The notes beneath the pieces are model-generated. The model saw only the letters and a list, made by a program, of their open reading frames with translations, had not been told where the DNA came from and made no database searches. DNA of 64,000 bases from Spiribacter halobius (lineage in GTDB: Bacteria > Pseudomonadota > Gammaproteobacteria > Nitrococcales > Nitrococcaceae). Positions 53,265 through 54,603 of this stretch are shown piece after piece. The stretch covers positions 2,294,001-2,358,000 of the forward strand of contig NZ_CP086615.1 of NCBI RefSeq assembly GCF_020883455.1, given 5' to 3'. Within the stretch, counting starts at the first letter, position 1, and each line of letters opens with the position of its first letter. A program made the translations under genes and the position numbers.

Positions 53265-54533
53265 TTACCGGGGAGTCCGGCCTTCCCGGAGCTCGCCCGG
53301 CAAAGCCGGACGGCCGCCCGCCTCGATGAGCTCCGGCAGCTCAGGCCGTAGCCGCTTCCAGAACGCGAAGAAGCCGGCAGTCGCATGAGGCCAGGCACGC
53401 CGGTCCCATTCCCGCAGAACGCGCACGAGGGCGATACCCTCGGCGCGCAGCCGGGGTTCGAGGCGGTCCACCACCTCGCGGGCCGGGCCGACTGGCACCC
53501 AGGGCGTGACCAGCTGCCCGACGCCGGCCGTGCGGGCGGTGTCCACCAGGCGGTCCATTCCGGTCTCACTGGCGTCAACGCGCAGGCTGATGGCGGCAGG
53601 GTTACGGTCCAGCGCGTCGTCAAGCGCTCCGGCGGTGAAGTCGGTGACCCGATCCGACACCGGCAGCGGCGAGCGCCGATCGGTCGCCTGCAGAGCGACC
53701 GCCAGTGGCCAGCCGCCCGGCGTCTGCAGGAGCCCCTCCGGCAGCGCGTCGTCCTCGGTCACGAGCAGGCCGGTGCGGGCATAGGGGTCCGGAGCATCGC
53801 CGGCGGGCGGGTCGCCCAGGGGCGGGCGCACCGCCTCGGCCACTGGCTCCGCCCGCGGCGCGAGCTGGCCTTCGGGGCTGAAGCGGCCATCGGTGTACTT
53901 GGCGATGTTGCCGGCCCGTGCCAGGTAGGTCTTGCCCCGCGTCTGCAGGCCCGCCACCCAGCGCCAGGAGAGCGTGTTGGAGGCCGGGTCGCCGTCCAGC
54001 AGGTGGCGCAGGAAGAAGTCGGCGCCGAGCGCCCAGGGCAGTTTCAGGGTGAAGATCCAGATGCTCGCAAACCACATGCGGGCGTGGTTGTGCAGGTAGC
54101 CGGTGTCCACCAGCTCCCGCACCCAGTGGTCGAAGCACTCGATCCCGCTGCGCCCGTTGACCGCTGCCTCGTAGGCGGCAGCCTCGCGGCCGCCGCGGTC
54201 CACGGGTTCCAGTGCTCCCTCCACCGCCGCCCGGTAGTCCCGCCAGGCGCCGGGTCGGCGCTCGAGCCAGCCTTTCCAGTAGGTGCGCCAGCAGGTCTCC
54301 TGGATGAACTTCTCCGCCGCCGGGAGGCCGTGGTGCGCCAGCGTCGCGGCCACGACCTCGGACTCGGCGAGCAGCCGGTGCCGCAGCCAGGGCGAGAGCC
54401 GGGAGACGTTATCGTGCTGCCCGGGACCGAGGTCGTAGTTGCGGCGGCGCGCGTAATCGCGCCCGGCGTGGGGCAGAAAGCGCTCGAGCGCGGCCGCCCC
54501 GGCGGCGCGCGTCGGTATCCAGTCAGGCTCCAT
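53265..54533 (-). CDS. Photolyase/cryptochrome-like protein with reversed domain order
   Basis: A 422-residue protein with the photolyase FAD-binding domain at the N-terminus instead of the C-terminus. Residues 15-235 show the conserved FAD and DNA contacts: YLHNHARMWFASIWIFTLKL, LRHLLDGDPASNTLSWRWVA and the end GLQTRGKTYLARAGNIAKYT. Residues 255-420 resemble the alpha/beta antenna domain that normally precedes it: REVVDRLEPRLRAEGIALVR and TAGFFAFWKRLRPELPEL, like the VFTPFWKRW segment. So the chain looks circularly permuted. The Trp-rich and Asn positions suggest flavin binding, but activity on DNA is not known. Start at 54533 with GGGAG. Confidence 0.78.
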   Translation of the reverse strand: MEPDWIPTRAAGAAALERFLPHAGRDYARRRNYDLGPGQHDNVSRLSPWLRHRLLAESEVVAATLAHHGLPAAEKFIQETCWRTYWKGWLERRPGAWRDYRAAVEGALEPVDRGGREAAAYEAAVNGRSGIECFDHWVRELVDTGYLHNHARMWFASIWIFTLKLPWALGADFFLRHLLDGDPASNTLSWRWVAGLQTRGKTYLARAGNIAKYTDGRFSPEGQLAPRAEPVAEAVRPPLGDPPAGDAPDPYARTGLLVTEDDALPEGLLQTPGGWPLAVALQATDRRSPLPVSDRVTDFTAGALDDALDRNPAAISLRVDASETGMDRLVDTARTAGVGQLVTPWVPVGPAREVVDRLEPRLRAEGIALVRVLREWDRRAWPHATAGFFAFWKRLRPELPELIEAGGRPALPGELREGRTPR

Positions 54534-54603
54534 GACGGCTCCCGGCAGTGGTGATTCCCTGTTGGCCGACCCGCTGGCTGCCGCGGAGTTCACCGTGCCG
54601 GGT

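Follow-up and report, generated by a model that had tools for sequence, protein, structure and literature searches.

A probable NewPHL/SPL photolyase of Spiribacter halobius with an N-terminal FAD domain and a C-terminal domain of predicted antenna-like fold

A gene on the minus strand of the 64,000-nucleotide stretch of the S. halobius genome analyzed here (the window; contig NZ_CP086615.1, positions 2,294,001 to 2,358,000) very probably encodes a cyclobutane pyrimidine dimer (CPD) photolyase of the NewPHL/SPL class, in which the flavin would be bound by the FAD domain, served by a tryptophan dyad and covered by the C-terminal Z-domain as a lid, with CPDs in single-stranded DNA as the substrate. 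The class, named NewPHL or SPL, has its domains in inverted topology and repairs CPDs in single-stranded DNA (PMC13274461); its representatives in D. shibae and M. mesophilicum are single-strand CPD photolyases with an N-terminal FAD domain and a C-terminal Z-domain (PMC9426592). An earlier note on this DNA suggested that the domain order would be an unusual rearrangement. The reversed order is real, but it is the hallmark of a class with exactly this arrangement, published in 2020 (doi 10.1093/nar/gkaa1147) and described in PMC9426592 and PMC13274461, and the window gene is probably one more gammaproteobacterial member.

Gene, start site and domain order

The open reading frame, which in its longest form spans 53265-54593 on the minus strand, could encode up to 442 residues. 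Translation probably begins at the ATG at 54533, since a ribosome-binding-like GGGAG lies 5 bases upstream and most homologue N-termini fall within a few residues of it, and the interval assigned to the gene in the earlier note fits the resulting form (Table 1). A hidden antenna domain upstream of this ATG was considered and rejected, as the longest start adds only 20 residues, which is too few; a sequencing or annotation artefact, a frameshift or a gene fusion was also rejected, as the same architecture is found in relatives from many genomes. Relative to the related proteins, four residues are inserted in the window protein directly after GFFxF, and its C-terminal tail is longer than in most of them. 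The flanking genes in the window, identified by eye as pyruvate dehydrogenase E1 and an MscS-like channel, found no match at the relatives' loci by tblastn, so that the gene context gives no functional hint.

Table 1. Positions in the window of the photolyase gene, the domains of its product and selected residues
Feature	Residues	Position	Strand	Basis
Probable NewPHL/SPL photolyase gene	422 aa	53265..54533	minus	ATG start at 54533, stop 53265-53267
Catalytic FAD-binding helical domain, N-terminal	1-222	53868..54533	minus	PF03441, E=1.7e-20; structure match Z <=17.9
Interdomain linker without helix or strand	223-252	53778..53867	minus	DSSP of AlphaFold2 model; low conservation
Putative alpha/beta Z-domain with antenna-like fold, C-terminal	253-407	53313..53777	minus	AlphaFold2, Foldseek, VIA, profile match
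Middle tryptophan, equivalent of E. coli photolyase W359	W167	54033..54035	minus	Alignment
Proximal tryptophan, equivalent of E. coli photolyase W382	W190	53964..53966	minus	Alignment, invariant 50/50
GFFAFWKRLRPEL, stretch named in the earlier note	387-399	53337..53375	minus	Conserved Z-domain motif WPHATxGFFxFK

The FAD domain comes first and the alpha/beta domain last, which confirms the order given in the earlier note. FAD_binding_7 (PF03441) matches residues 96-232 of the 442-residue form at profile positions 1-134 of 203, and the DNA_photolyase antenna domain (PF00875) has no Pfam match in the window protein. In a search of PDB sequences, the alignment pairs residue 7 of the window protein with residue 207 of class I photolyases. 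The 200-residue part that normally comes first is thus absent, and as no more than about 6 residues lie ahead of the aligned region, there is no N-terminal antenna domain. The AlphaFold2 model, built with 49 relatives, has a pLDDT of 94.1 and a pTM of 0.92, with residues 1-235 structurally similar to the photolyase and cryptochrome catalytic domain (Z 15 to 17.9). A PDB sequence search returned no solved structure of the NewPHL class. All 49 relatives that were aligned in full share the domain order.

The FAD domain ends after the equivalent of the E. coli FDHEG, and its last third (PF03441 positions 135-203) is without a match. The circular permutation proposed in the earlier note consequently holds only approximately: the FAD-then-alpha/beta order and the antenna-like C-terminal domain stand, whereas the absent last third of the FAD domain and the Z-domain's own motifs do not fit, and the window protein is not a strict permutation, with all canonical parts in rotated order.

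Flavin and lesion residues, class membership and predicted function

Residues equivalent to E. coli Y222, S235, S238, E274, W277, R278, N341, R344, M345, W359, D372, D374, N378, W382 and W384 are conserved in 49 or all 50 of the aligned members. Because the equivalents of W382 and W359 are kept and the counterpart of the distal W306 is absent from the family alignment, the protein has a tryptophan dyad rather than a triad; a dyad has also been reported for the D. shibae NewPHL (PMC8948257). The position of E. coli R342 is an invariant His in the NewPHL-like group and that of T234 is mostly Val, and lesion and flavin contacts may accordingly differ from those in E. coli, judging from the alignment. 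These two substitutions relative to class I would also be in keeping with a photoreceptor of the cryptochrome type, or with a flavoprotein that does not repair DNA, but the residues aligned to the E. coli CPD contacts E274, W277, N341, M345 and W384 are invariant (50/50) and the characterized NewPHLs repair CPDs (PMC13274461, PMC9426592), and we regard a non-repair function as highly improbable.

The window protein combines an N-terminal FAD domain that no antenna domain precedes, a tryptophan dyad, and a C-terminal Z-domain agreeing in position and kind with the description in PMC9426592; no tested feature differs from the NewPHL/SPL class. This probable membership rests on the architecture, the dyad and the relatives, rather than on direct alignment to A8LJA9 (D. 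shibae) or M7YZC8 (M. mesophilicum). Canonical photolyases (class I/II/III and DASH) have PF00875 before the FAD domain, which the window protein lacks. Class I CPD photolyases (E. coli PhrB, Synechococcus 1owl) resemble it in the FAD and CPD-contact residues and in the FAD-domain fold (Z about 17) but differ in having an N-terminal antenna domain, a tryptophan triad and a full-length FAD domain, and cryptochrome DASH resembles it in the expected substrate, CPDs in single-stranded DNA, and in the FAD-domain fold (Z 17.9) but has the canonical domain order. Picocyanobacterial Phr4/Phr5 and Phr6 share the reverse order with the FAD domain first; Phr4 and Phr6 have Fe-S cluster cysteines and a recognizable photolyase domain (PMC9426592), whereas the 422-residue translation contains only two cysteines, C81 and C133, and not the four [4Fe-4S] cysteines of the Fe-S bacterial photolyase/Phr4-Phr6 type. 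In a tree of FAD domains, the window protein groups with a Spiribacter relative, in one clade with Roseobacter-group relatives (support 99/99), apart from the class I and Fe-S types; the deeper joins are unsure, as the tree includes long branches and its bootstrap had not converged.

The most likely function would be light-driven CPD repair on single-stranded DNA, with no antenna pigment involved. The N-terminal helical domain would hold FAD, and the flavin would be photoreduced through the two-tryptophan chain of W190 and W167; the reduced flavin, excited by blue or UV-A light, would then pass an electron to a CPD flipped into the active site, where the dimer would split and the electron return. 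The Z-domain, which takes the place of the final third that the FAD domain lacks, would probably close the flavin pocket, and an antenna chromophore is not expected in it. We infer both the single-strand repair and the sealing role from the published NewPHL class. With CPDs in single-stranded DNA as its likely substrate, the enzyme would complement the genome's class I-like and Fe-S photolyases and take over from a DASH enzyme, for which no gene over the cut-off was found.

Emmerich et al. (2020) are said to have introduced the NewPHL/SPL class with its inverted domain order, and reportedly described the Z-domain as sealing the flavin and suggested that, on single-stranded DNA, NewPHLs take over the role of DASH enzymes. 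The Z-domain's own invariant residues (G349, D377, W381, G387 and F389) are consistent with a sealing role. The genome, a single contig (C1) of 4.17 Mb, carries four photolyase/cryptochrome genes, at C1:408222-409643, 551013-552398, 1486321-1487001 and 2347268-2348533, listed as class I-like, a second photolyase/cryptochrome, Fe-S type and NewPHL; the second photolyase/cryptochrome lies below the cut-offs of the NCBIfam photolyase and cryptochrome models. No DASH photolyase in the genome scores over the curated cut-off, and this, with the other photolyases present, fits the suggested substitution.

Fold and origin of the Z-domain

In the AlphaFold2 model, assigned by DSSP, the Z-domain has strands at 254-259, 275-282, 313-320, 340-344 and 368-372 with helices between them, and when modeled alone it reaches a pLDDT of 90. 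It is predicted to have the antenna (HUP-like) fold. The earlier note's reading of this region as antenna-like was borne out in so far as antenna domains are among the best structure matches of the domain folded alone, although the matches are weak and universal stress proteins are tied. VIA gives the highest score to the antenna domain of 8ijy, a 6-4 photolyase (Z 8.6, rmsd 2.9, 113 residues), in a tie with the universal stress protein 2pfs (Z 8.5, rmsd 4.2 over 110 residues); below these two come many photolyases and cryptochromes, some matching over the whole domain, as does 7x0x (Z 7.1, model 17-172 on chain 5-167). Foldseek places class II photolyases at the top with E about 1e-3, no match reaching E 1e-3. 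A search with the Z-domain against PDB sequences gave nothing below E 0.1, and a single E. coli sequence gave no signal against the Z-domain profile, an antenna profile being needed. Matches to PF04273 (BLH_phosphatase) were seen in 5 of 50 Z-domains, the best with E 4e-5.

The Z-domain may well be homologous to the antenna domain, short of proof. The evidence leans slightly towards relocation, in which the ancestral antenna domain left the N-terminus for the C-terminus and lost its chromophore, either through a tandem duplication whose outer domains disappeared or because the gene was split and fused again; this concerns only the origin of the Z-domain and is compatible with a NewPHL/SPL CPD photolyase. 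Photolyase antenna domains head the structure-match lists, and an HMM profile of 50 Z-domains scores 31.4 (P 2.5e-4) against 61 antenna sequences, nearly all of them class I-like, compared with 20.5 for the best of 150 column shuffles, 16.0 for the reversed control and 28.1 for the accepted antenna pair of class I and Fe-S types by the same method. At a relaxed threshold this alignment is colinear from the first strand to the FTPF region, with WPHATxGFFxF close to YxVFTPF; the motif thus comes to lie close to the FTPF motif at the end of canonical antenna domains, though not precisely over it. Two relatives match PF00875 below threshold, in the register expected for an antenna domain. Against relocation, the universal stress proteins are tied structurally and score 24.8 by profile, the Foldseek matches fall short of E 1e-3, the one PF04273 match examined among the relatives has an E of 8e-5 (below the curated cut-off), and the additional loss of the last third of the FAD domain does not fit a simple permutation. 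Comparisons with other antenna types gave 20.1 for the Fe-S antenna (PF04244), little above the shuffles, and 17.4 for class II, within the shuffles and from a single class II sequence.

The nearly equal scores of universal stress protein domains would also suit the recruitment of an unrelated HUP/Rossmann-like domain, added at the C-terminus to seal the FAD pocket, its likeness to the antenna reflecting convergence or distant ancestry. The conserved Z-domain motifs TEDD, RSP, VGP and WPHATxGFF, which by eye are absent from the canonical antenna sequences compared, point the same way. The match to the class I antenna profile, however, exceeds that to universal stress proteins and spans the whole domain in order, and we consider recruitment possible but somewhat doubtful.

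The point that merits specialist attention is whether the Z-domain arose by relocation of an antenna domain, as this bears on proposals about SPL ancestry. Antenna-less SPLs have been proposed to be ancestral to the photolyase/cryptochrome superfamily. We see an even balance for the broader claim that the Z-domain of the class is a relocated antenna domain and not an unrelated lid, which would make the class a rearranged one rather than an antenna-less ancestor. If relocation is correct, an antenna domain stopped binding its chromophore and came to cover the flavin, and the argument that antenna-less SPLs came first would be weakened by the presence of the antenna domain at the other end.

Distribution of relatives

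More than 580 genome stretches among GTDB genomes encode relatives, some of which are possibly other photolyases. The 80 relatives retained, which align over almost the entire length with 45-56% identity, are mainly from Alphaproteobacteria, with others from Gammaproteobacteria and Actinomycetota and one from an Acidobacterium; many in this identity range come from bacteria of the Roseobacter group, to which D. shibae belongs. A relative is present in 16 of 23 genomes from the family of S. halobius itself. Among 200 genomes spread over the phylum, eight pass E 1e-30, one of them by the FAD domain only.

One related open reading frame (L198; genome G069, C1:4066476-4067036) lacks a Z-domain and ends soon after its FAD domain in a cysteine-rich tail, CRVCPHYGRCPF; in appearance it is a FAD-only Fe-S form resembling picocyanobacterial Phr4. 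On the megaplasmid of Ruegeria sp. TM1040 (L199, 2968-5570), the NewPHL gene is annotated only as 'FAD-binding domain-containing protein', and a gene of the AarF/ABC1/UbiB kinase family lies 20 bases downstream on the same strand.
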